Positions 21,501 to 60,004 of a stretch of DNA of 64,000 nt are shown piece by piece (the first letter of the stretch is position 1; every line of letters starts with the position of its first letter). The notes below the pieces were generated by a model. That model was given only the letters and a program-made list of their open reading frames with translations, searched no databases and was not told where the DNA came from. Made by a program: the position numbers and the translations under genes. Source of the stretch: Spongiibacteraceae bacterium (GTDB lineage Bacteria; Pseudomonadota; Gammaproteobacteria; Pseudomonadales; Dasaniaceae); NCBI GenBank assembly GCA_028280715.1, contig JANQLG010000042.1, forward strand, positions 62,001-126,000. Reading direction: 5' to 3'.

Positions 21501-22987
21501 GACAGGACAGCCATCGGAGTATCATCACCCATGGATCCTACAGCTTCATTGCCAGCCTCAGCCAGTGGACGCAGTACCTGATCTCTCTCTTCAAAACTAA
21601 CCTGGAACATTTTCTGGTAGCTAGGAAGATCTTTGCCTTTAACCAAATCTGCTTCACGAGTTGGTTGGAAGGTGGATTCAATTCGGAACGCATGCTCCTT
21701 CAACCACTTCTTATAGGGTGCCCTGGACTTCAGCTGTTCATCGATATCCTTGGTATGTAACACCTTGCCAGTCTCTGTATCGACCGCCAGTATTTGACCC
21801 GGCCCAACACGCCCTTTGGCGACAACGTCTTCCGGTTTATAGCTATAGGTACCGATCTCTGAAGCCAGTGTGATAAAACCATTTTTGGTGATAACCCAAC
21901 GCGCTGGACGCAAGCCATTTCTATCCAACATACACACCGCATAACGGCCATCGGTTAATACAATACCGGCTGGGCCATCCCAGGGATCCATATGCATTGA
22001 GTTGTATTCATAAAAGGCTTTCAGATCCGCATCCATATGTTCCATGTTCTGCCATGCAGGTGGCACTAATAGACGCACCGCTCTGAACAGGTCCATACCG
22101 CCAGCCAACAATACTTCCAGCATATTATCCAGACTCGATGAGTCGGAGCCTGTGCGATTAACTAAAGGACTAATAGAAGCAATATCAGGAAATCTTTCAG
22201 TTTCAAACTTGGTAGAACGCGCAGCTGCCCAGTTACGGTTACCTTCAATGGTATTAATTTCACCATTGTGTGCTAATAACCTGAAAGGTTGAGCCAAAGG
22301 CCAACGTGGTAGGGTATTTGTAGAAAAACGCTGGTGAAATACACATATGGCTGTTTCCAGTCGAGAGTCACCCAAGTCAGGATAAAACTTGGGTAGATCT
22401 ACCGGCATCATCAAGCCTTTATAGGAGATAACAGAGGCCGAGAAGCTACATATGTAAAAATCTTTATCCTGCTCTAATGCCAACTCGATCTTTCTGCGGG
22501 CAATAAACAGCTTCGTCGTTAACGATGCTTCATCTTGTTCATCACTATTGATAAACAATTGCTCAATTTGAGGCAAACTTGCTAGCGCAATCTCACCTAG
22601 ACAGGCATCATCGGTGGGCACTACACGCCAACCAGCAACATTTAAACTTTCAGCAGCCAACACTTCGGCAATAATGTTTTTTGCCTTGTCAGCCATAGCC
22701 GGGTCGCGGCTCAGAAAAATTTGCGCAACGCCATAATGCTCACTCAGCTCAATGCCACACTCTTCAGCTGCAACTGTTCTCAGGAAACTATCAGGCTTCT
22801 TTATTAGTAAACCGCAGCCATCACCGGTTTTACCATCGGAGGCAATACCACCACGGTGCGTCATGCACGTAAGAGACTCAATTGCAGTGCGTAGCAATTC
22901 AGCGCTGGGCTTGCCGCCCATATCAGCAATCAAGCCGAAGCCACAGTTGTCACGGACATCTTCAGGTCTGTAAAGGCCTGTACTCAT
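18539..22987 (-). CDS. gltB: Glutamate synthase large (alpha) subunit
   Basis: A 1482-residue alpha subunit. After removal of a 14-residue propeptide Cys15 (CGFGLIADM) becomes the N-terminal nucleophile of the glutaminase domain. The central and FMN-binding synthase domains follow ([33 protein letters not shown]). The 3Fe-4S cysteines are in [12 protein letters not shown], and the C-terminal GXGXG beta-helix closes the protein ([18 protein letters not shown]). Transcribed ahead of gltD with a 55-base gap. Confidence 0.97.
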
Positions 22988-23159: not shown

Positions 23160-24785
23160 TTACTCTAAATTACGTACCGAGCGAATATCCTGATGGATAC
23201 TCTGCAAGCTTCGTGCCCAGGGTTTTTGCCGCTGAAGAGCTTGCGGCAGGTCTCGGATCCCGGCAACAGCAGCATTTCGATCAGAATAAGGGCCAACCAC
23301 CGCCACAAACCAAGGCTTATCTTTATAACGGGTTTCAAAGTATATTATCTGCAGCAGCCCCTGATGCTGACGGGAAAATTCTTGAATACGTCTCTCTTCT
23401 ACCGTACCCAATAACTGCAACATATAGCCACTGGCAGGATAGCCTAAAAGTTTCTGCTCGCGTGCAGGGAGCGGATTTGATACCGGTGCAGGTTCTTCTA
23501 TAACAGCCGCTATTTCAGCTTCCTCCACCTCTGGCTTAGTTTCTGGCTCAGGAGTCAATTCGACTGGAGATGTAACTATTGGCTCTTGTACGGTTTGAGT
23601 CTGTACGACCTGCTGTTCAACAGTCTCAGCCTCTTCGGCTTGATCGATTTGTAAAGGTGTGGGCTTTTCTTCTGGCGCTAATTGTTCACTAGCACCTACC
23701 TCATCAGCACGATCAACAATTTCCAATTCGGCTTCTTTATTATCTCGATCCGCTTCTTTATCCAAAGCTACTACTTCAACTTCTGTGACAGACTCAGGAT
23801 TTGATTCAGACGGCTCTGATAGCAATATGGGTTCTGGCTTCTCACTGCTATCGTCAGCTACAAGTGTATTTTCTTGCCGGTTTACAACCGCTGTAGATTC
23901 TGCCGATGTAATCACAACATCTTTACGCTCATCACTCGACTGAAAGACATAAGAGACCAGAATCACCACGACTAACACAGCAATTGCGGCAATATGCGTT
24001 ATCGGCAATGGCAGATCTACCCCTCTGCGCTCAGCCTTACTATCTGAGGACAACAGTGTTGGCGCCACTCGCTTAATTTCAGCAATATTGCCACCGGTAC
24101 GCTCAACCAAAACGGCCAACTGATCCCTATTAAGCGGCTGTTCGCCGCCATAACCCACCGACTGCAGCAACCCGAGCAAGTACTCACCCGTTTCTTCCGC
24201 CGTCAAAGGCTCTATTTCTAATACTTTATATTGGTCAGGAGCAAGCCCGACTAATCTCACTAACTGCTCTACCTGATATTCACCTACTAATAGGAGATGG
24301 ATAATTCCTTCAGCGTGCTCGTAGAGATATTGCAACAAGCCTAAACCTTCCAACCCCATAAAATGTGCTTGATCAACGGCAATCAATAGCGGTTCAACTT
24401 CCCCCAACCCTTGCTGCTGACGCAATGATGCAAGTAAGCTGGCTGCACTTTCTCCTGAGCCCAGCTGCATTTGTTCAGCCAGTGTCTCCAGAATTTGCTC
24501 AGGAGAGGAAATTTCTTCGGCATCTATGGAGCAAAAGTCCATAACGGGTTCTAGCTGATCAAGAACCACACCTAATATCGAGGAAGTACCAACACCTGTA
24601 CTGCCAAGTAACAACACAGCCTGATCACTAAAGCGACCAAAATGAAGAACCTGATCGAGGATTTGCCTGCGCATGCCATGCGCATAAAAATAGTCATTAT
24701 GAAAATCAACGTTGAAGGGATCATCTCCCAGATCTAAACGCTGAACGTAATGATCAGCCGAATATTCAGCTGTTGCTTGTTGCAT
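23160..24785 (-). CDS. damX: DamX-like SPOR protein with degenerate ATPase domain
   Basis: A 541-residue inner-membrane protein between gltB and aroB, the place of the DamX-like gene in Pseudomonas. Residues ~40-240 are an ExeA/AAA-like ATPase domain, but the P-loop reads GSTGVGTSS (Lys replaced by Thr) near 60, and the Walker B-type site is VDQAH rather than DEAH. A transmembrane helix lies at about 258-280, followed by a long acidic Glu/Pro/Val linker and a C-terminal SPOR domain (~455-535, YMLQLLGTVEE, WFVAVVGPYSDRNAA). SPOR domains bind denuded peptidoglycan at the septum. GGGAG precedes the ATG. Confidence 0.85.
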   Translation of the reverse strand: MQQATAEYSADHYVQRLDLGDDPFNVDFHNDYFYAHGMRRQILDQVLHFGRFSDQAVLLLGSTGVGTSSILGVVLDQLEPVMDFCSIDAEEISSPEQILETLAEQMQLGSGESAASLLASLRQQQGLGEVEPLLIAVDQAHFMGLEGLGLLQYLYEHAEGIIHLLLVGEYQVEQLVRLVGLAPDQYKVLEIEPLTAEETGEYLLGLLQSVGYGGEQPLNRDQLAVLVERTGGNIAEIKRVAPTLLSSDSKAERRGVDLPLPITHIAAIAVLVVVILVSYVFQSSDERKDVVITSAESTAVVNRQENTLVADDSSEKPEPILLSEPSESNPESVTEVEVVALDKEADRDNKEAELEIVDRADEVGASEQLAPEEKPTPLQIDQAEEAETVEQQVVQTQTVQEPIVTSPVELTPEPETKPEVEEAEIAAVIEEPAPVSNPLPAREQKLLGYPASGYMLQLLGTVEERRIQEFSRQHQGLLQIIYFETRYKDKPWFVAVVGPYSDRNAAVAGIRDLPQALQRQKPWARSLQSIHQDIRSVRNLE

Positions 24786-26637: not shown

Positions 26638-28833
26638 TTAATCAATCAGCGTATCAGCTAAAATACGTGGCGTAATGAAAATTAAGGTTTCTGTTTTTTC
26701 TTGAGTCACAGAAGTTGCAGAAAACAATCCTCCTATATAGGGAATGTCACCTAGCAGCGGAACCTTGGACTCAGATTCCACATCTACAGTGCGAAATACG
26801 CCGCCCAATACAACGGTCTCGCCATTCCCTACAAGTACCTGAGTTGTTAACTGCGTGGTATCAATGGTTGGAACGAAACCACCATTGCCTGAAGGCACCA
26901 AGTCTCCGACAGAATCTTGGTTTATCTCTAAAGTCATAATGATCCGATCATCCGGTGTAATGCTTGGTTTCACTTGGAGTTTTAATACAGCCTCTTTAAA
27001 CTCAATCGTAGTCTCACCATTCGCAGATGATTCCTGATAGGGTACTTCTGAACCTGACTTGATAACTGCTTCTTGTTTGTCGCCAGTGATAACCTTTGGT
27101 TGAGACACTATTTCACCTCGACCTTGTGACTCTAAAGCGCTCAATTCCATATTAAGGTGAACATCGTCCGATACATAGCCTACAGCAAAACTACTTGTAG
27201 GTGATGCAACACCCAAATCTACACTTAATGCATCTGGAAATAATATAGGTTCTGTCAACTGATTACCTTGAGCAATATCCAAAGCCGCTTGAGCTATAGA
27301 ATTAGAACTATCAATAATAGAGCTAGTGTTGCCTCCAAAAAATAGCGCATCATCACTATTTACTGAATTGATACCTGATACTCCCCATCGTATTCCTAAC
27401 TCCTCATCAAAGCTTGAGTTGGCAATAACAATTCTTGCTTCAACTAACACTTGCCTCACCGGAACGTCTAGCAATCTAATCACACGACGAAACTCCTCTA
27501 GCTTGGCAGCTGTTTCAGTAACCATTAGAGAATTTGTTCTCTCATCAACAATTACACTACCTCGACTCGAAAGCAGGCTAGCTGTGGATGCACCTTCTCC
27601 TTCTTGACTGGATTCCGAAGCACTGAATAAATTATATAACTCTTTCGCATCTGCATAACGAATACGTATGTACTCAGTTATAAGCGGAGCTAACTCCTCA
27701 ATCTGCTTATTATTCTCTATTTCTAGACGCTCACGCTCAGCAATTTCGTCGGCAGGAGCAACCATTAACACATTACCTACTTGCCGCTTATCTAATCCTT
27801 TGGTTTTAAGTACCAATTCCAAAGCTTGATCCCAAGGTACATTCTGTAGACGTAATGTAATACGCCCATCAACCGTATCACTGGCCACCAAATTAAGATT
27901 AGTAAAATCCGCAATCAGCTGTAACACTGCCCGGACCTCAATATCCTGAAAGTTTAGTGATAACTTTTCACCGACAAAGGCAAACTCTTTTTTCTTGGCT
28001 TCAAGTTCTTCAGTCGTCAATGGTTTAATACTGATAATGTATTCATTATCAGTTTGATAAGCCAAATAATCGTAATCACCTGTTGCAACTAATGAAAATA
28101 ATGCGCCACCTTGTGAGGGTTGTGCTTCAATTGACTGTACAGGTGTTGCAAAATCGCTAACATCATATCTACGCTGTAAACGTTCAGGGATATTGATTTC
28201 ATCAAAATCAACTTTAATGACCCCCCCTTCGGAGAAAACATTAATACCCGCTTTAGGGTTAGCCATATTAATAATTAAACGACCCTCACCTTGATCACCT
28301 CGTTTAAAGTCCACACTGACAATTTCGTTATCAGCAGTAGCTATTTTTTGAGCTGAAGATAATACTGGATTTTCTTTCGATGGCTTAAGATATTCACGAA
28401 CACCAGAATCTCCAACCACAACAAACAGGCTATTACCATCAATCCTTGTCTGATAAGGGGCAAGCTCTATCAAGTTTAAAATCATACGAGTCCGCCCACC
28501 CGACTCTAAAATTACAGCACTACTGGCATTACCGTAAGATAAAGGAAATTTCTTTTGGTTAAGCTGACTTGAAACACCCACTAAATCGAGAGCAATACGT
28601 GCAGGTTTCTCAATGTTATAGCCTTTTGGCTCAGGAGGAGTACCATCGAAATCCAGCCTCACTTCAAACTGACCACCAGGTTGCGAACTGAATTCCACAT
28701 TCTGCAAATTGACATTTGCCAACGCCAAACTGCTGCCCAGCAAAGTACTCAGTACTATTAACAGAACTTTCGTAAAACAACGGTGTATTACACCACCCTT
28801 GAATATACTCAGTTGTCTGTTTGCAATCTCCAT
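26638..28833 (-). CDS. pilQ: Type IV pilus secretin PilQ
   Basis: Outer-membrane secretin through which type IV pili pass. About 731 residues from the ATG at 28833 (GGAGAG upstream); a GTG at 28845 is an alternative. A signal peptide ends near SSLALA. Two AMIN-type domains (roughly 45-280) bind peptidoglycan; an STN/N0 domain (LSLNFQDIEVRAVLQLIADF) and N1 domain follow. The C-terminal secretin barrel carries EVPYQESS, VLGGVF and the closing VPLLGDIPYIGGLF motif. Last gene of pilMNOPQ. Confidence 0.95.
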   Translation of the reverse strand: MEIANRQLSIFKGGVIHRCFTKVLLIVLSTLLGSSLALANVNLQNVEFSSQPGGQFEVRLDFDGTPPEPKGYNIEKPARIALDLVGVSSQLNQKKFPLSYGNASSAVILESGGRTRMILNLIELAPYQTRIDGNSLFVVVGDSGVREYLKPSKENPVLSSAQKIATADNEIVSVDFKRGDQGEGRLIINMANPKAGINVFSEGGVIKVDFDEINIPERLQRRYDVSDFATPVQSIEAQPSQGGALFSLVATGDYDYLAYQTDNEYIISIKPLTTEELEAKKKEFAFVGEKLSLNFQDIEVRAVLQLIADFTNLNLVASDTVDGRITLRLQNVPWDQALELVLKTKGLDKRQVGNVLMVAPADEIAERERLEIENNKQIEELAPLITEYIRIRYADAKELYNLFSASESSQEGEGASTASLLSSRGSVIVDERTNSLMVTETAAKLEEFRRVIRLLDVPVRQVLVEARIVIANSSFDEELGIRWGVSGINSVNSDDALFFGGNTSSIIDSSNSIAQAALDIAQGNQLTEPILFPDALSVDLGVASPTSSFAVGYVSDDVHLNMELSALESQGRGEIVSQPKVITGDKQEAVIKSGSEVPYQESSANGETTIEFKEAVLKLQVKPSITPDDRIIMTLEINQDSVGDLVPSGNGGFVPTIDTTQLTTQVLVGNGETVVLGGVFRTVDVESESKVPLLGDIPYIGGLFSATSVTQEKTETLIFITPRILADTLID

Positions 28834-28850
28834 GGAACTCTCCACTCTAA

Positions 28851-29417
28851 CTATTTTTCTAGTGTCTTTAACGTGATAGTTCTAGGCCTTTCCACCCAAC
28901 CATCAACGCCATTAGGCACGATTTCTATAACTGAAATATGTGTTTCAGCAGTCTCAACTATTCGGCCGTGATTACGGCCAATATAATTTCCCTGCTTGAT
29001 TCGATGCACACCGCCTGATTCATCTGCCATTAACGCCCACAATGTTCCTGCCTGTTCTAACGTCCCCACCATGGCGAATGAATCAATACTAAATTGTTCT
29101 AGATATTCCTTTGTTCTGTTTAGGTCCGGATTAACATTACTGGCCATTCTTAAACGAGTAATCTCAGAAACTTCTATAGGCTGTTCAAACGGGCTTCTCA
29201 AACCAGACGCGCTATATGTGAACGCCTTATACGCCTTAAACGCAGGAATAGGCTCTATAATGCCTGCCGGCTTTGCTTTGGTTTCGGCCATAAAAACATC
29301 GAGATCTTCATAGCTCCTTCCACCACATGCAACTAATACCAAACAACCCGACATTAAAAGAAGCTTTGTCAAAAACCTCTTTGAAAAATTTAAGAAGAAT
29401 GCATTAACCATCTTCAC
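28851..29417 (-). CDS. pilP: Type IV pilus lipoprotein PilP
   Basis: Periplasmic lipoprotein joining the inner-membrane PilNO complex to the PilQ secretin. 188 residues with an unusually long N-terminal charged/hydrophobic segment before the lipobox (VLVACGGRS; Cys near 31). The C-terminal beta-domain reads VGTLEQAGTLWALMADESGG, then V-x-x-GNYIGRNHGRI, as in other PilPs. GTG start at 29417 with GGAGG 6 bases upstream; an ATG lies 6 bases further in. One base separates it from the pilO stop. Confidence 0.93.
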   Translation of the reverse strand: MKMVNAFFLNFSKRFLTKLLLMSGCLVLVACGGRSYEDLDVFMAETKAKPAGIIEPIPAFKAYKAFTYSASGLRSPFEQPIEVSEITRLRMASNVNPDLNRTKEYLEQFSIDSFAMVGTLEQAGTLWALMADESGGVHRIKQGNYIGRNHGRIVETAETHISVIEIVPNGVDGWVERPRTITLKTLEK

Positions 29418-29418
29418 A

Positions 29419-30030
29419 CTATCCCTCCAAATCCTTATAACGGTATGTTTTAGCCATTATTTTCATGGTCAGGGATGAACCTTCTTCCTCTTGGTCAATT
29501 TCAAAATTATGTAACGTTACTATTCGTGGCAAGCCTGCTATTCCACTCACAAACCCCCCCAGATCGTGGTAACCGCCCCGAACTAATATCTCAATTGGAA
29601 GTTCGATATAAAATTCTTCCGATTTCTCCGCACCCAAATTAATTGTTTCTATTTCAAGACCGCTTTCTAAACCTTTTATAGTGATATCTTCTAATAAGCC
29701 CGGAACCTCGGTATCACTCGGCAACTGGCTTACCAAAGCACCGAAGGACTCTTCCATTTCCTGCATCTGCTTTCGGTAAGCATCAAGATTGGCCGCTTTA
29801 TAAGCTTTATCACCAAATTCCTGTCTAAGCGTTACTTCGTTTTGCTGCTCTACGGTTAACTCATCTTGTAAACCCGAAATATGATAGACATAGCCAAGCA
29901 CCAAAACCGCAACAAAAACGATAACCCATACAATAACTTTGATAGCCATCGGCCAGGAGCCGATGTTTTCCAAATCCATATCGGCAAAATCAAAATCCTG
30001 CAGCTCTTGCAATGTATCTCGTATCGGCAC
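29419..30030 (-). CDS. pilO: Type IV pilus assembly protein PilO
   Basis: Inner-membrane assembly protein pairing with PilN. 203 residues: an N-terminal cytoplasmic stretch rich in Asp and Leu (LQELQDFDFADMDLENIG), one transmembrane helix (about 28-50, IKVIVWVIVFVAVLVLGYVY), a coiled coil and a ferredoxin-like periplasmic domain. The order matches PilO of Pseudomonas. Placed between pilN and pilP with 2-base gaps, so translation is tightly linked. Confidence 0.93.
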   Translation of the reverse strand: MPIRDTLQELQDFDFADMDLENIGSWPMAIKVIVWVIVFVAVLVLGYVYHISGLQDELTVEQQNEVTLRQEFGDKAYKAANLDAYRKQMQEMEESFGALVSQLPSDTEVPGLLEDITIKGLESGLEIETINLGAEKSEEFYIELPIEILVRGGYHDLGGFVSGIAGLPRIVTLHNFEIDQEEEGSSLTMKIMAKTYRYKDLEG

Positions 30031-30032
30031 AG

Positions 30033-30595
30033 TTATTCCTCCTCCACATCAACTGAAGGAGTTGTAATTTTAAAAGACATACCAAACTCACTAGCCTGCT
30101 CCCCAAAGTCGGGATTAGCTTTTACTGAAGTTAAATTAGGCTCATTAAACCATTCAGAGCTGTCAAGCTGCCTCATTAAGCTTGAAATACGGTTATTGGA
30201 TTCAGCAACACCTTGCAACTGAATCGTAGTGTCAGTACGAGTAAGATCAGTAAAAAACACGCCATCAGGTAATGTCCTTACCACTTCATCAAAGATACGC
30301 ACAATGATTGGCCGATTGCCTTGTAATTCCTGAATCACCTTCATACGATCAAGTAATTCCTGTTTCTTCTGTTCTAGCTGCTGAATTTCCTCAACTTGCG
30401 CATTAAGCTCATCGATATTTCTTTGCAAATAACTGTTTCGCGATTGCTGATTTTCTATAGAACCACTTACAACCATATCGGCTAACAAAACTAACGCGAT
30501 GGCTAACAAAACCACACCACCCAAAACGGTTAAAAATTCTTGTCGTAACTCCTGACGTCGTTCTTCACGCCATGGAAGTAGATTGATGTTTGCCA

Positions 30596-30596
<1 letters not shown>
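30033..30596 (-). CDS. pilN: Type IV pilus assembly protein PilN
   Basis: Bitopic inner-membrane protein, partner of PilM and PilO. 187 residues. The first ten residues MANINLLPWR are the conserved PilM-binding INLLPWR motif. A transmembrane helix spans about 22-42, followed by a coiled coil (SRNSYLQRNIDELNAQVEE) and a small periplasmic domain. The start overlaps the pilM stop by one base (TAATG). Confidence 0.95.
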
Positions 30597-31690
<1,094 letters not shown>

Positions 31691-55142: not shown

Positions 55143-56321
55143 ATGAAAATTCCCGGCTATAGTGTTCATCGTAAAATAGGCAAAGGAGGAATGGCCACAG
55201 TCTTTCTGGCCACCCAAACCTCCTTTGAACGCAAGGTCGCGTTGAAGATTATTGCTGACAGTGCTTTCGGCGGCCAAAGCCTTGCCGACCAATTTATGTC
55301 CGAAGCCAAAATTATTGGCAGCTTTTCCCACCCGCATATCGTTCCTGTCTATGATGTCGGCAGAATTGAACAGTTTCATTATCTGGCTATGGACTATCTT
55401 CAAGGCGGCGATCTGAGCAGCTGGATAAAAAGCGGGCTGACACCAGAAGAATCCGAACAAATCATCATCCAGATCGCCAAAGCGCTGCACTTCGCACACG
55501 GCAAGGGCTACATTCATCGCGATATCAAACCGGACAACATTCTATTTCGGGAAGATAATTCGGCGGTATTAACAGATTTTGGTATCGCTCAACCCTTACT
55601 GAAAAATTCCTCCGAGAGTTCAAAGCGGGAACGCATAGTAGTTGGTACCCCCGCCTATATGAGCCCGGAACAGAGCCAGGGCAAAGCTATCGATGCTCGC
55701 AGTGATTTATATTCGCTGGGCGTGATGTTTTATCAAATGCTGACCAGGGAACAACCCTATCATGCTGATAATTCCAAGGTACTGCTGATAAAACATATTA
55801 AAGACCCTATCCCCAAACTACCCTTTGCGCTGCAACGTTATCAACCCATTATTGATAATCTGATGGCCAAAAACAGCGATGAGCGTTTTCAATCTGCACT
55901 TGAATTTATTAAAGCACTGGAAAATTTAGCCGAGCACCCGGATATGAATGAAGTGATTACTTCCATAGCCGATCTTAAGCTGGTGGATAAAGAACCTGAA
56001 AAAGAAGAATCACAATCTCTGGTGATCGAAGAAAACAGCTACCGAAAATTAGGCCTGGCAAAACGCTACGCCTTAAACTGCTCCATTAAAAGCAATGAGT
56101 CACAGCATTTTTTGCTGTTGTTTAGTCAATTCACTCGTCGACTGATAGAGTGGCATAACCAACACGGCGGGCAATGTGGCAAAATACATTGTGAAATTAC
56201 TATTGATCCGATGTTAGCTGAGGTTGTAAAGAACAGTATTGATCAAGTACTGAATGATGAGAATTTTGATTTTTTAAAAAGGCTTAAGCCGGATTTTAAA
56301 ATCATAGATACAAATGGATAG
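55143..56321 (+). CDS. Cytoplasmic Ser/Thr protein kinase, PknB-type
   Basis: 392-residue Hanks-type kinase. Kinase domain (about residues 5-270) has the glycine loop GKGGMATVFLA, VALKII lysine, HRDIKPDNILF near 123-133, DFGIAQ near 145 and a GTPAYMSPEQ P+1 loop. Unlike classical PknB it has no transmembrane helix or PASTA repeats. The C-terminal ~110 residues (KRYALNCSIKSNESQHFLLLF) form an alpha/beta region I do not recognise. 36 bases after the HIT gene, so possibly cotranscribed. Confidence 0.88.
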   Translation: MKIPGYSVHRKIGKGGMATVFLATQTSFERKVALKIIADSAFGGQSLADQFMSEAKIIGSFSHPHIVPVYDVGRIEQFHYLAMDYLQGGDLSSWIKSGLTPEESEQIIIQIAKALHFAHGKGYIHRDIKPDNILFREDNSAVLTDFGIAQPLLKNSSESSKRERIVVGTPAYMSPEQSQGKAIDARSDLYSLGVMFYQMLTREQPYHADNSKVLLIKHIKDPIPKLPFALQRYQPIIDNLMAKNSDERFQSALEFIKALENLAEHPDMNEVITSIADLKLVDKEPEKEESQSLVIEENSYRKLGLAKRYALNCSIKSNESQHFLLLFSQFTRRLIEWHNQHGGQCGKIHCEITIDPMLAEVVKNSIDQVLNDENFDFLKRLKPDFKIIDTNG

Positions 56322-56562: not shown

Positions 56563-56721
56563 TTAGCGAATATCATTTTAAATAACTGTCCAGGAATTTA
56601 CCCAGCTCCCTTCTGCTAAGAGATCAGTCAATTAAGAGGCCAGTCAATAATCCGCTGCCGCCACTCCTTTACCCTTTAATACCGATTTTAAAAAATTGCG
56701 TTATTTCACTTGCAAAACGAG

Positions 56722-56760
56722 GATTACACTTGTAATCTCTCCATTGGCTTACAAATGTAA
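56722..56760. promoter_or_regulatory. Two BlaI/MecI-type operators before blaI
   Basis: GATTACA-CT-TGTAATC (56722-56737) and TTACA-AA-TGTAA (56749-56760) both contain the BlaI/MecI/CopY core TACA-N2-TGTA. Centres are 25 bases apart. They lie 54-92 bases before the blaI ATG, the expected place for autorepression. A -35-like TTGCAA (56710) and TAATCT (56733) are a possible promoter overlapping the first operator. Confidence 0.8.
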
Positions 56761-56813: not shown

Positions 56814-57206
56814 ATGAGTAGCATCCAATTGTCTGACTCTGAGTGGGAGTTGATGAAGGTTCTGTGGGACTGTGAGCCGGTTTCCGTCAATGATATAGCG
56901 GCCAAGTTGCATGAAAGTACCCAATGGCATCGGAAGACAGTCCGCACCATGCTAAATCGATTGGTTAAGAAAGGCATAGTTGAGCAGGTAATAATCGATA
57001 ATATCCAGCACTACCAGGCGCTACTTACGCGAGAAGAATGCTCTACAAATGCCACCCAATCATTCCTTGATCGGGTTTTCGATGGTTCCTTTACGCCTTT
57101 CCTTGTGCACTTTACCAAAAGCAACAAACTCTCGGATGAAGAGCGAAAAGCCCTGGAAAAACTCCTTGAAGATTCGTCACCCAACAACAAAGACACCAAG
57201 GAGTAA
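56814..57206 (+). CDS. BlaI/MecI/CopY family repressor
   Basis: 130-residue winged-helix repressor (IQLSDSEWELMKVLWD, then TVRTMLNRLVKKGIVEQV). The recognition helix and wing are typical of BlaI/MecI; the C-terminal helical part is the dimerisation region that the partner protease cleaves in related systems. A GAGAGGGAAA site precedes the ATG. Two operators lie upstream, and the membrane protease gene follows 6 bases after the stop. Confidence 0.9.
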   Translation: MSSIQLSDSEWELMKVLWDCEPVSVNDIAAKLHESTQWHRKTVRTMLNRLVKKGIVEQVIIDNIQHYQALLTREECSTNATQSFLDRVFDGSFTPFLVHFTKSNKLSDEERKALEKLLEDSSPNNKDTKE

Positions 57207-57212
57207 AGACAA

Positions 57213-59417
57213 ATGGAAATGGCTAACAATCTAAACCCATTGGTAGAGTGGCTTGTTATAGCATCAATTAAAAGCACCCCAATTATCGTCGTTGTTTTAT
57301 TCCTAAGGAAAATACTGTTTACCTATTTGTCCGCGGGTGCGCGCTACGGGTTGTGGTTCAGTGTAGTGATTAGCTTAACTATCCCTATAGGCTGGCAATT
57401 CAACATTCCCTTCAGCGCCTTGAACCCCTTAAACACTGAAACCGGGATTAACAATGAAGATCCATTCAACGATCTTTCCGAAACACACCTGAGTGGGGAG
57501 GAAATGTATGCCTTTGATTCAGCCGATGATTTAAGTACAACAAACACCACCGATTCAAAGCAAAACACATTAACATTAAGCACCTTCACTGAGAAAAAAA
57601 CCGATAGCAATGTTGGATCACCAACCGAAAAGAAAACAGATAAACAGGCATTAACCTATGCTCATATATTTGTTTTATTGTGGTTGGCGGGGCTGTTGAT
57701 TTTCGGCTTTCTGATTGCCGCCAGTTTTTACCGGCATTATAGGATCACCAATGAAGCGGTTAACTGTAGTACCTCTATTCATCGGTTATTTGACTTGTGC
57801 GCCGAAAAAATTAGTCTCAATAGAAAAGTTACACTGCTTCAATCCCAAGACGTAAGATCACCTACTGTTATCGGCTGGATCTCACCAAGGTTAATTCTGC
57901 CTGTAAACCTGGACACCACACTCAGTGAGAAAGAGATAAGCCATGTACTTCTTCATGAATTAGGACACATAAAACGCAACGATATATTGTTTAACTGGAT
58001 GCTCTGTATTGTTAACCTGCTTCACTGGTTCAATTCTTTGGTCTGGCTCTTTGTCAGAATAATGCGCCGGGATATGGAGGGAGCTTGCGACGCATTTGTC
58101 TTAAACAATTTGTCAAAGGATAAACACCGTGACTACGGAGCGACCCTAATACAGCTAAGCAATATTACCCAGTTGCCAAAATACTCTGCTGCAGGAATTG
58201 GTTCTGCAACTGCAGTCGGAATTTTAGAAAATCACAAGGATCTCGTGGAAAGAATAAACATGATTAAACAGTTTAAAAGCATTAGTGCGAAAAGTCGGGC
58301 AATGTTTTTAATGATATTTGTCGGATGCACTTTAGCCGCAACGGCTCAGCCCTTAAGTGAAAAGGTAATACTAACCTTACCCGAACTCGCGAAAGTTATT
58401 GAAGAAAATACCGGGAAAACGGTTGATTTATCGAATCCTGCTCTGCAGGGTACTTTCAGCGTAAAAAAACCAACAAGCAAAGTGAACTATTCGAATTTTC
58501 TCACACTGTTAAATCCACAGCACCTCACCGCCTATCAATATGATGACAAAGTTATCGTTATCAATAAAAAAGATATTGTTCAACATTACAAATATCTCCC
58601 TGAGGTTAGTGAAAACAAAGAATATCAAACAGATGAGTGGGTTAAGGCTTCTGTCAAGCTGAAAAATATTTGTGCAACCACTATCCTCCCGGCAATCAGA
58701 CCATTGATTGGCCGCTTTGATTTTTTCAGAGCCGACCTTGACAGCGGTAGAGCTATCAACCTCGGCATAAACTATGGAAACCTACAGCGAATTGAAACCA
58801 TCATCCGCCAAGCCGATCAATTGAGCCGTAGAGAAGAAGACTGCAAAGCTAAGGCTGATCAGGCTTACGGCCCCTATATCGGTCGAAAAAAGATGCCTAG
58901 CAATATGCCCAGACGTGTCGTGGCTGAGTTTAGTACGAAAACATCAGAAGGAAAACTTGTCGGCCTGAAAACCCTAAAAGGCAAAATTTCAATAATTAAC
59001 ATCTGGTCATCTAATTGTGAAGTTTGCGAAAAAGTGATGCCGGCACTCGACAGGTTATATAAAAAATATCAACACGAAGGGATGGAAATTATCGGCGTTA
59101 ATCGCGACTACCATGAGGCGGGTCGAACAGTTTTAAAAGATTATGATCCAGACAGTTATTCGCCCCTTCAAGTATCAGACCATAAAAAACTGCAAGCGTA
59201 CCATGACGATTTTTTGAAACGAGTTCCAGTCAGTTTTCCTTCCATAAGAATCGATAGCGCTAAAGATAAAATCCCCGGCAGCATGAAAGTAAAAGCCGGA
59301 GACTCCGTTATCATTGATAGGACAGGAAAAATACAATTCAGCATCTCAGGTTTTAATGAAGACACTGAGGCTTTGTATGAGCGCACTATCAACGAATTAT
59401 TGAAAAATAATCTATAG
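57213..59417 (+). CDS. M56 (BlaR1-like) protease fused to secretin-like and thioredoxin domains
   Basis: 734 residues. Transmembrane segments near 11-32, 44-60, 149-171 and 262-282 frame an M56 protease domain: HELGH at 248-252 and MEGACD with Glu289, the zinc ligands of BlaR1/MecR1. A long loop at 60-148 has repeated EKKTD. A final helix at 363-380 leads to the predicted periplasm. There lie an STN/N0-like module (~385-455, ILTLPELAKVIEENTG), an N1-like module (~470-540, KASVKLKNICATTILPAIRPL) and a TlpA-type thioredoxin domain (~570-734, CEVC at 602-605). BlaR1 instead has a penicillin-binding sensor there. Cotranscribed with the repressor gene. Confidence 0.85.
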   Translation: MEMANNLNPLVEWLVIASIKSTPIIVVVLFLRKILFTYLSAGARYGLWFSVVISLTIPIGWQFNIPFSALNPLNTETGINNEDPFNDLSETHLSGEEMYAFDSADDLSTTNTTDSKQNTLTLSTFTEKKTDSNVGSPTEKKTDKQALTYAHIFVLLWLAGLLIFGFLIAASFYRHYRITNEAVNCSTSIHRLFDLCAEKISLNRKVTLLQSQDVRSPTVIGWISPRLILPVNLDTTLSEKEISHVLLHELGHIKRNDILFNWMLCIVNLLHWFNSLVWLFVRIMRRDMEGACDAFVLNNLSKDKHRDYGATLIQLSNITQLPKYSAAGIGSATAVGILENHKDLVERINMIKQFKSISAKSRAMFLMIFVGCTLAATAQPLSEKVILTLPELAKVIEENTGKTVDLSNPALQGTFSVKKPTSKVNYSNFLTLLNPQHLTAYQYDDKVIVINKKDIVQHYKYLPEVSENKEYQTDEWVKASVKLKNICATTILPAIRPLIGRFDFFRADLDSGRAINLGINYGNLQRIETIIRQADQLSRREEDCKAKADQAYGPYIGRKKMPSNMPRRVVAEFSTKTSEGKLVGLKTLKGKISIINIWSSNCEVCEKVMPALDRLYKKYQHEGMEIIGVNRDYHEAGRTVLKDYDPDSYSPLQVSDHKKLQAYHDDFLKRVPVSFPSIRIDSAKDKIPGSMKVKAGDSVIIDRTGKIQFSISGFNEDTEALYERTINELLKNNL

Positions 59418-59437
59418 AATCAGGAGTGCAATGCCTT

Positions 59438-60004
59438 ATGAAAATACTCAAAATTATTGTTGTCAGTTTACTGCTCACCACCAATCAGGCTTTCGCCATA
59501 GAAAATGGAGTACCTCCAGATGATGTAATTACGCTATCAGAATTAGCCGAAAAACTGGAACAGAAACTGAAAAAACCTGTAGTTGTCGATAAAAACTACG
59601 CAAAGAATGAAGTCCAAATAAAGCTGGAACGTGCCCTTGAAGATAGGGGCAATCTGCTTACTGAGCTTTCCATCAACGGTTACACAGCAATTGATACAGA
59701 GGATTATATTGAATTAATCGATGTTCGGCGTTCTCGAATGTCTGCAATTCCAGTGGTCGATGAAAGCAAACATTACTATCCAAACCAATGGGTTACAAAA
59801 ATTATTACCGTTGAAAAAGCTTGTGCCTATAAAATTCTACCTATAGTAAGGCCGCTGGTGCCTCAATATGCTCACATGGCAGTCACTGGAGAGGAGAGTC
59901 TGGTTATTTCTGATCGTTACGCAAATGTACAGCGGCTATCTTCTATTATTGAAAATATTGATAAAGAAACGAAAGACAAAGCTGGCTGTAACAAAAAATC
60001 GTGA
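59438..60004 (+). CDS. Periplasmic secretin N-domain-like protein
   Basis: About 188 residues from the ATG at 59438; GTG at 59426 is an alternative. Signal peptide (MKILKIIVVSLLLTTNQAFA). It resembles the isolated N0-N1 part of secretins: N0-like residues ~30-85 (ITLSELAEKLEQKLKKPVVV) and N1-like ~100-165, ending YANVQRLSSIIENID, as in GspD N1 domains. Its N1-like region (ACAYKILPIVRPL) is close to that of the preceding protease (ICATTILPAIRPL), so one probably arose by duplication. No secretin pore domain is present. Confidence 0.7.
   Translation: MKILKIIVVSLLLTTNQAFAIENGVPPDDVITLSELAEKLEQKLKKPVVVDKNYAKNEVQIKLERALEDRGNLLTELSINGYTAIDTEDYIELIDVRRSRMSAIPVVDESKHYYPNQWVTKIITVEKACAYKILPIVRPLVPQYAHMAVTGEESLVISDRYANVQRLSSIIENIDKETKDKAGCNKKS

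Follow-up and report, generated by a model that had tools for sequence, protein, structure and literature searches.

Proteases of the BlaR1 type are known mainly as antibiotic sensors. The topology of BlaR1 is given as Nout/Cout in the accessible parts of PMC9834060, which also describe how, in Staphylococcus aureus, the protease faces the cytosol and the sensor lies outside, with signal peptidase cutting between the last helix and the sensor; the BlaR1 of Mycobacterium tuberculosis is presented there as being without an equivalent sensor domain. In Synechocystis, a BlaI-family regulator (PetR) and a BlaR1-family protease (PetP) respond to a copper signal, according to the available portions of PMC7896320 and PMC13421787, and some M23 proteins also carry an M56 domain, as the available text of PMC9662197 has it. 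Here we describe the same type of protease and repressor with a sensor which appears to be derived from a secretin, found in seven genomes belonging to two families. The locus lies in a stretch of 64,000 nucleotides from a Spongiibacteraceae bacterium (GenBank assembly GCA_028280715.1, contig JANQLG010000042.1, positions 62,001 to 126,000), hereafter the window, as a forward-strand operon of blaI (56814-57206), an M56 protease gene (57213-59417) and a third gene, orf3 (59438-60004).

Sequence comparison supports the parts of this circuit well, and the variant of the BlaI/M56 switch which they would form appears both real and conserved. The M56 gene is one open frame encoding a protein of 734 residues, P0001, for which Pfam and NCBIfam domain matches give the layout M56-N0N1-TlpA. 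Residues 16-351 (57258-58265, forward strand) match the M56 peptidase family PF05569 with an E value of 9e-58 and align to the BlaR1 structure 8exs. Eight residues of this core, H248, E249, H252, D257, E289, D293, Y308 and R347, are invariant in all seven M56 proteins of an alignment (A9) comprising P0001 and six relatives; by our own mapping onto the 8exs alignment, these appear to correspond to the BlaR1 residues, those of the zinc site included, discussed in the accessible parts of PMC9834060. An earlier note on this DNA had proposed a BlaR1/MecR1-type zinc protease core (HELGH at 248-252, Glu289), a CEVC motif at 602-605 and a BlaI-type repressor beside the gene; all of these were borne out, the last by the adjacent blaI and the operator-like palindromes upstream of it.

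Hydropathy analysis places hydrophobic segments of P0001 at residues 13-31, 47-65, 152-170, 263-281 and 363-381. The fourth comes after the HExxH site and is not counted as a sure membrane helix, since it rises above the hydropathy cut-off in only three of the seven proteins. The last (approximately 363-381; 58299-58355, forward strand) is preceded by four Lys/Arg and closes with a signal-peptidase-like A-T-A/QP (the stroke marking the putative cut); QP follows this helix in every one of the seven proteins and Ala occupies position -1 in six. The C-terminal half of P0001 is predicted to be periplasmic because the hydropathy and N-side charge of this last segment combine with the Nout/Cout topology reported for BlaR1, with which they agree as far as PMC9834060 is accessible; the topology evidence consists of these three elements. 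A cytoplasmic C-terminal half, which the earlier note had named as counting against its reading, was thus not obtained.

The first periplasmic module is of the GspD N0-N1 type (residues 381-545; 58353-58847, forward strand) and contains C487 and C544. The NCBIfam GspD model matches residues 391-537 with its N-terminal portion (E 3.7e-6), and the 12 PDB sequences reached at E≤0.1 by a profile built from two rows, P0001 residues 377-556 and ORF3, are without exception GspD-type proteins of the type II secretion system (T2SS). An AlphaFold model of residues 381-560 has a predicted local distance difference test score (pLDDT) of 83 and a predicted template modelling (TM) score of 0.62, and its best folds are the N-domains of XcpQ/GspD, with E values from 3e-8. 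The TM-score against the best folds is approximately 0.34 over both domains and 0.57, at a root-mean-square deviation of 3.9, against assembled PulD; our reading is that the low two-domain value may reflect a different angle between N0 and N1 in the model. The GspD model is matched by 7/7 M56 proteins and by 5/5 N0-N1 sequences of a further alignment (A10), whilst Pfam finds no match to the Secretin barrel domain in either P0001 or ORF3. The STN/N0-like and N1-like assignment of the earlier note therefore held as secretin N-domain similarity, found by profile and fold and sharpened to the type II secretin GspD, although the Pfam STN and N0 models were silent.

C487 and C544 are invariant in the seven M56 proteins and have equivalents in all four free N0-N1 proteins described below. 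The pair is absent from each of 19 distinct GspD N1 segments, where the first position is Ser and Cys does not occur; these were obtained from 21 distinct N1 segments in the loci compared, two belonging to the M56-N0N1 family having been set aside. That the 19 are GspD is indicated by matches to Secretin_N and GspD_N0 in every case and to the secretin barrel in 18, the frame of the nineteenth running off its locus. Past the last helix, the five proteins without a TlpA-like domain have no other Cys and the two with such a domain add only its CxxC (C372 of P0001 sits inside the helix itself). The pair probably forms a disulfide, C487-C544. Such a conserved pair, which the earlier note had not noticed, raises the plausibility of a sensor of disulfide state, as that note had suggested, but the thioredoxin domain which formed part of that suggestion is not constant, being present in two of the seven proteins and here lacking both the cis-Pro and the Trp before CxxC.

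The family emerged from searches of quite different depth. With P0001 as the query, no other full-length relative was found among 293 genomes of the order, 398 of the phylum, 10 of the family or 369 of the class; these sets overlap and include the organism's own genome, and since the large searches scored only the best two or three candidates per genome, relatives may have been missed. A larger draw from the order (390 genomes) gave one relative, in G1018, together with two genomes (G1064, G1096) which match the M56 part only. A search with the G1018 protein through 144 genomes of its family gave matches at E≤1e-20 in 26 of them. Six BlaI-M56-N0N1 loci are present in that family (G1018, G1121, G1122, G1124, G1137 and G1148) and, with the window, these make up the seven-locus set, drawn from two families of one order. 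G1127, also among the 26, has a free N0-N1 protein only, this being the sole segment matched there by the M56-protein queries; the rest of the 26, judged by where the matches fall and how long the frames are, resemble GspD or other M56 proteins. Matches confined to the M56 part were obtained there from G1131, G1169, G1170 and G1191 and, like those of G1064 and G1096, do not enter the seven-locus set. Scans of genome contigs with P0001, or with P0001 and ORF3 together, found no relative, and were probably insensitive, as relatives turned up later in other genomes. Viral contigs searched with the P0001 and ORF3 alignment gave none. On plasmids, 732 records match P0001, all below 60% identity and none covering 80% of the query; among the 20 of these matches listed, all stop at or before query residue 408, 19 being annotated as BlaR1/MecR1/M56 and one unannotated.

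BlaR1 and GspD models match all seven M56 proteins, whereas the ResA/TlpA models match only two, those of the window and G1148, and N0-N1 is thus the constant sensor part and TlpA an optional one. G1148 has the same layout as the window, TlpA included, and so provides the further M56-STN-thioredoxin fusion beside BlaI for which the earlier note had suggested a search. In P0001 the TlpA/ResA-like domain occupies residues 568-734 (58914-59414, forward strand), and the note's TlpA-type thioredoxin was confirmed by an AhpC-TSA match in Pfam at residues 570-649 (E 7e-14) and by the fold, DsbE/ResA being the best folds for an AlphaFold model with a pLDDT of 77, in which residues 85-92 and 94-98 (model numbering) are poorly predicted. 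(Joint alignments of the N0-N1 and TlpA rows were misaligned and were dropped, both parts being aligned and modelled separately.) A cis-Pro and a Trp before CxxC are defining traits of TlpA/ResA thiol reductases. All 14 comparators keep this Trp as well as the MP-motif Pro; relative to them, P0001 has neither (Asn601, no Pro) and carries an insertion of approximately 25 residues; the domain of G1148 has CKSC, a Pro at the cis-Pro place and no Trp, and is 22% identical to that of the window (E 7e-12). As the cis-Pro and the preceding Trp are missing, normal reductase activity of the window domain is doubtful.

The third gene, orf3, encodes a free N0-N1 protein of 188 residues which begins like a signal peptide, has the cysteine pair and matches the NCBIfam GspD model at E 1.8e-14 (the ATG at 59438 was chosen by eye; the list of open reading frames gives a GTG at 59426). 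In G1148 there are two such free copies in tandem, ORF3a and ORF3b, of 191 and 204 residues. Identity of ORF3 is 43% with ORF3a, 36% with the free protein of G1127 and 31-40% with the attached N0-N1 domains of five relatives, falling to 30% with the attached N0-N1 of G1148 and to 25% with both ORF3b and the attached domain encoded in the same operon. Alignment of the G1127 protein begins at residue 316 of the G1018 protein and at residue 330 of the G1124 protein, both marking the start of the last helix, and the last helix of the M56 proteins and the signal peptide of the free copies therefore look equivalent. In a 21-row tree, the 11 cysteine-bearing domains split from the 10 GspD rows with a Shimodaira-Hasegawa-like approximate likelihood ratio of 99, the order within the 11 being open and the long branches being those of the attached domain of G1148 (2.54), of the window (2.12) and of ORF3b (2.05); in a previous tree of 10 rows, which predates the discovery of the relatives, P0001 and ORF3 were placed together (0.983). 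Both TlpA loci also have a free N0-N1 gene in the operon and none of the five others does over the stretches compared, a pattern which comprises two loci only. We read this as suggesting that where TlpA was added, the ancestral N0-N1 may have been kept as a free protein whilst the attached copy changed fast.

The repressor gene, blaI, adjoins the M56 gene in all seven loci; its 130-residue product matches Penicillinase_R at E 1.6e-32 (112.7 bits, cut-off 22.6) and is 52-66% identical to the six other BlaI proteins. Palindromes of the BlaI/MecI type are present in the sequence at the operon's own promoter: a putative operator 1, GATTACACTTGTAATC, at 56722-56737 and a putative operator 2, TTACAAATGTAA, at 56749-56760, 25 bp apart and arranged in the same way in the relatives. 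The spacing is 24-25 bp in 6/7 loci, G1018 having one site with the neighbouring bases masked. TACAnnTGTA is the operator type of the BlaR1/MecR1-BlaI/MecI switch, which the sites here resemble. The window holds two copies of TTACAnnTGTAA against 0.06 expected, and none of 100 shuffles reaches two. A possible promoter, TTGCAA (56710-56715) and TAATCT (56733-56738) separated by 17 nt on the forward strand, overlaps operator 1; it is weak relative to the sigma-70 consensus (4/6 and 3/6), and its CTTGC box is kept at a fixed distance from operator 1, 17 nt from the operator-overlapping TAATCT, in six of the seven loci. Across the operators the genes vary between loci, encoding Smr, PD40, AdoMet decarboxylase and 2-oxoglutarate (2OG)-oxygenase proteins. 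The own genome has TTACAnnTGTAA in five places against three in the control; two are these operators and, judged by eye, two of the other three (L036, L040, L039) are inside long frames and one is intergenic. The exact 14-mer operator occurs once in that genome, and the 16-mer matches 25 stretches in viral contigs. The operon itself is thus the only BlaI target that sequence matches can be said to support. Control of T2SS genes by this BlaI was considered and is not supported: TACAnnTGTA cores are absent from both T2SS regions, each of 18 kb, which says only that no site is there, as just 0.33 and 0.24 were expected by chance.

Several other features of the surroundings were recorded. Two more TACAnnTGTA cores in the window (22447-22456 and 23859-23868) are both inside long frames. 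A Ser/Thr protein kinase gene (55143-56321, forward strand) lies approximately 490 bp upstream of blaI, and we see no reason for counting it in the operon; the kinase PknB has been suggested as a stand-in for the absent sensor of M. tuberculosis BlaR1, in the accessible parts of PMC9834060. A PilQ-like secretin with AMIN, STN and Secretin_N (26638-31663, reverse strand) ends a five-gene set which by eye resembles pilMNOPQ. Upstream of blaI in G1137 there is a CRISPR (clustered regularly interspaced short palindromic repeats)-like array (L136, 2830-3778), whose 14 listed copies mostly stand 61 nt from one another. In G1122 a PD40 beta-propeller gene (L134, 1728-3305, reverse strand) sits next to the BlaI operators, and in G1127 another (L137, 4106-5626, forward strand) sits next to the free N0-N1 gene that occurs there alone; the two look similar by eye, both have signal-peptide-like starts, and they are a possible target or partner.

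Taken together, we lean slightly towards an autoregulated BlaI/M56 switch gated by the N0-N1 domain. BlaI would bind the two palindromes and keep all three genes of the operon repressed. The M56 protein would sit in the inner membrane with its zinc protease in the cytoplasm and its GspD-derived N0-N1 in the periplasm, where a change in N0-N1, most likely in the C487-C544 bond of N1 or in contact with another N0-N1 protein, would be the signal; this would pass via the last membrane helix, the protease would be activated and BlaI cleaved. Redox control through the cysteine pair is the favoured form of this reading, the main rival being the sensing of a partner without redox chemistry. In the window organism and G1148, a TlpA-like domain would have been added and an ancestral N0-N1 copy would have become the exported ORF3, the likeliest sensor partner, acting either as a feedback competitor or as a ligand, the CxxC domain then reading its cysteine pair. 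A narrower version, in which ORF3 and the protease form a thiol-disulfide ligand-receptor pair of the periplasm, ORF3 carrying an oxidation state read via the diverged N0-N1 and the CxxC domain and leading to the loss of BlaI, is on balance unlikely; if true, the disulfide status of the envelope would be turned into proteolytic loss of the BlaI repressor.

A number of observations weigh against this gated switch, or limit parts of it. The identification of N0-N1 rests on the GspD profile, the PDB matches and the fold, because the Pfam models STN, Secretin_N and GspD_N0 do not report P0001 at E≤1. Ratios of nonsynonymous to synonymous substitution (dN/dS) are 0.07-0.11 for the periplasmic part and 0.11-0.15 for the whole gene in three pairs, and 0.11 and 0.16 for the M56 part in two pairs with the third saturated; the low ratio of the periplasmic part speaks for the switch, but these values are rough because synonymous distances are near or above 1, and they come from the three closest relatives, all of them without TlpA, the other four proteins having been left out. 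The attached N0-N1 of the window protein is itself among the longest branches of the tree, and its own constraint may therefore be weak. The TlpA-like domain of the window may be inactive, to judge from its residues. No regulon beyond the operon was found: with one mismatch allowed, the operator matches at 11 places, these two operators included, as compared with 10 in the control. The free N0-N1 gene of G1127 (L137, 3148-3762, reverse strand) has the cysteine pair and yet has no BlaI or other M56 match in the 7 kb compared. Lastly, the ligand part cannot hold family-wide, since five of the seven loci lack both TlpA and a nearby free copy.

The alternative which survives best, though we think it rather less probable than the gated switch, is partner sensing without redox, in which N0-N1 docks GspC, GspD, another secretin-type protein or ORF3, much as the STN domain does in sigma regulators, and the cysteine pair is a structural disulfide only. 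The sensor module is GspD-like by both profile and fold, the genome encodes two GspC genes together with GspD-type secretins, and where an exported protein has just two cysteines, these often play a structural role. PupR, according to the accessible parts of PMC7186176, binds its partner via a periplasmic STN subdomain and a neighbouring subdomain. However, neither T2SS region has a BlaI-type site, and the gain of a CxxC domain in two loci hints at thiol chemistry. The earlier note had proposed a secretin- or TonB-type partner; the N0 is of the GspD type, no TonB-receptor match was seen and no link to a T2SS partner emerged.

Improbable, in our view, is the C-terminal half being the effector, released by signal peptidase as a periplasmic N0-N1-TlpA thiol protein whilst the protease responds to something else. 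A signal-peptidase-like A-x-A/QP follows the last helix in six of the seven proteins, such a cut being reported for S. aureus BlaR1 (in the portions of PMC9834060 available), and free N0-N1 proteins do exist; against this, TlpA is missing from five of the seven and lacks cis-Pro and Trp here, and the domain at that place in BlaR1 is a sensor. Very improbable is a switch still devoted to beta-lactams or the cell wall, with N0-N1 reporting envelope damage: BlaI and the operators are of the same kind and the best of the NCBIfam M56 families is blaR1_generic, but at 178.7 bits it falls under the curated cut-off of 400 and covers the protease part only, Pfam finds no penicillin-binding domain in P0001, and no beta-lactamase gene was seen beside the operon. 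A chance fusion, assembly error or decaying gene, which the four genome-set searches without a full-length relative might have suggested, is already largely refuted by the open frame, by six relatives, G1148 among them with the same layout, TlpA and free copies included, and by purifying selection in the relatives.

The exchange of sensors in M56 proteins is not itself new, given the precedents of PetR/PetP, PupR and M. tuberculosis BlaR1 and the varied M56 C-termini of this order, which include TonB_C (by Pfam) and, to judge by eye, an M23-like part and ankyrin repeats (L017 and L009), perhaps representing further exchanges. No report of secretin N0-N1 or thioredoxin domains in an M56 protein was found in the literature searched, most subscription journals being outside the search, and as far as these searches show, the GspD-type sensor with its cysteine pair is new. 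PetP-PetR is similar in having a signal other than a beta-lactam, and is set apart by description, no N0-N1 or thioredoxin part being named in the accessible portions of the PetP accounts. PupR-type sigma regulators share an inner-membrane regulator with a periplasmic STN-like domain, but are described in the available text of PMC7186176 as anti-sigma-type regulators without a protease, in which STN follows another subdomain. The second BlaI-M56 pair of the own genome (L002, 949-3668; G000 contig C34), an M56-TonB_C protein followed by a TonB_C protein, likewise has BlaI and M56 as neighbours and an envelope-type C-terminal domain; it differs in carrying TonB_C instead of N0-N1, in a BlaI only 28% identical and in having no TACAnnTGTA in the 3.3 kb of L035. 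With the T2SS secretins GspD/XcpQ, P0001 has the sequence and fold of N0-N1 in common, whilst lacking the secretin barrel and possessing a cysteine pair which is missing from all 19 GspD segments. With TlpA/ResA/DsbE it shares the fold and CxxC, the window domain differing in its absent cis-Pro and Trp and in its insertion. The locus also offers a case in which a sensor domain was apparently copied out as a free exported protein, the membrane copy diverging and gaining a thioredoxin-like domain, and a small system in which the gating of an M56 protease by a periplasmic domain could be tested. With the BlaR1/MecR1-BlaI/MecI switch it shares the key M56 residues, a membrane layout predicted to be similar, the signal-peptidase-like site after the last helix, operators of the TACAnnTGTA type and the adjacent BlaI-type repressor; in place of the penicillin-binding sensor there is a GspD-type N0-N1 with a cysteine pair and, in two of the seven proteins, a TlpA-like tail, which suggests that something other than antibiotics is sensed.

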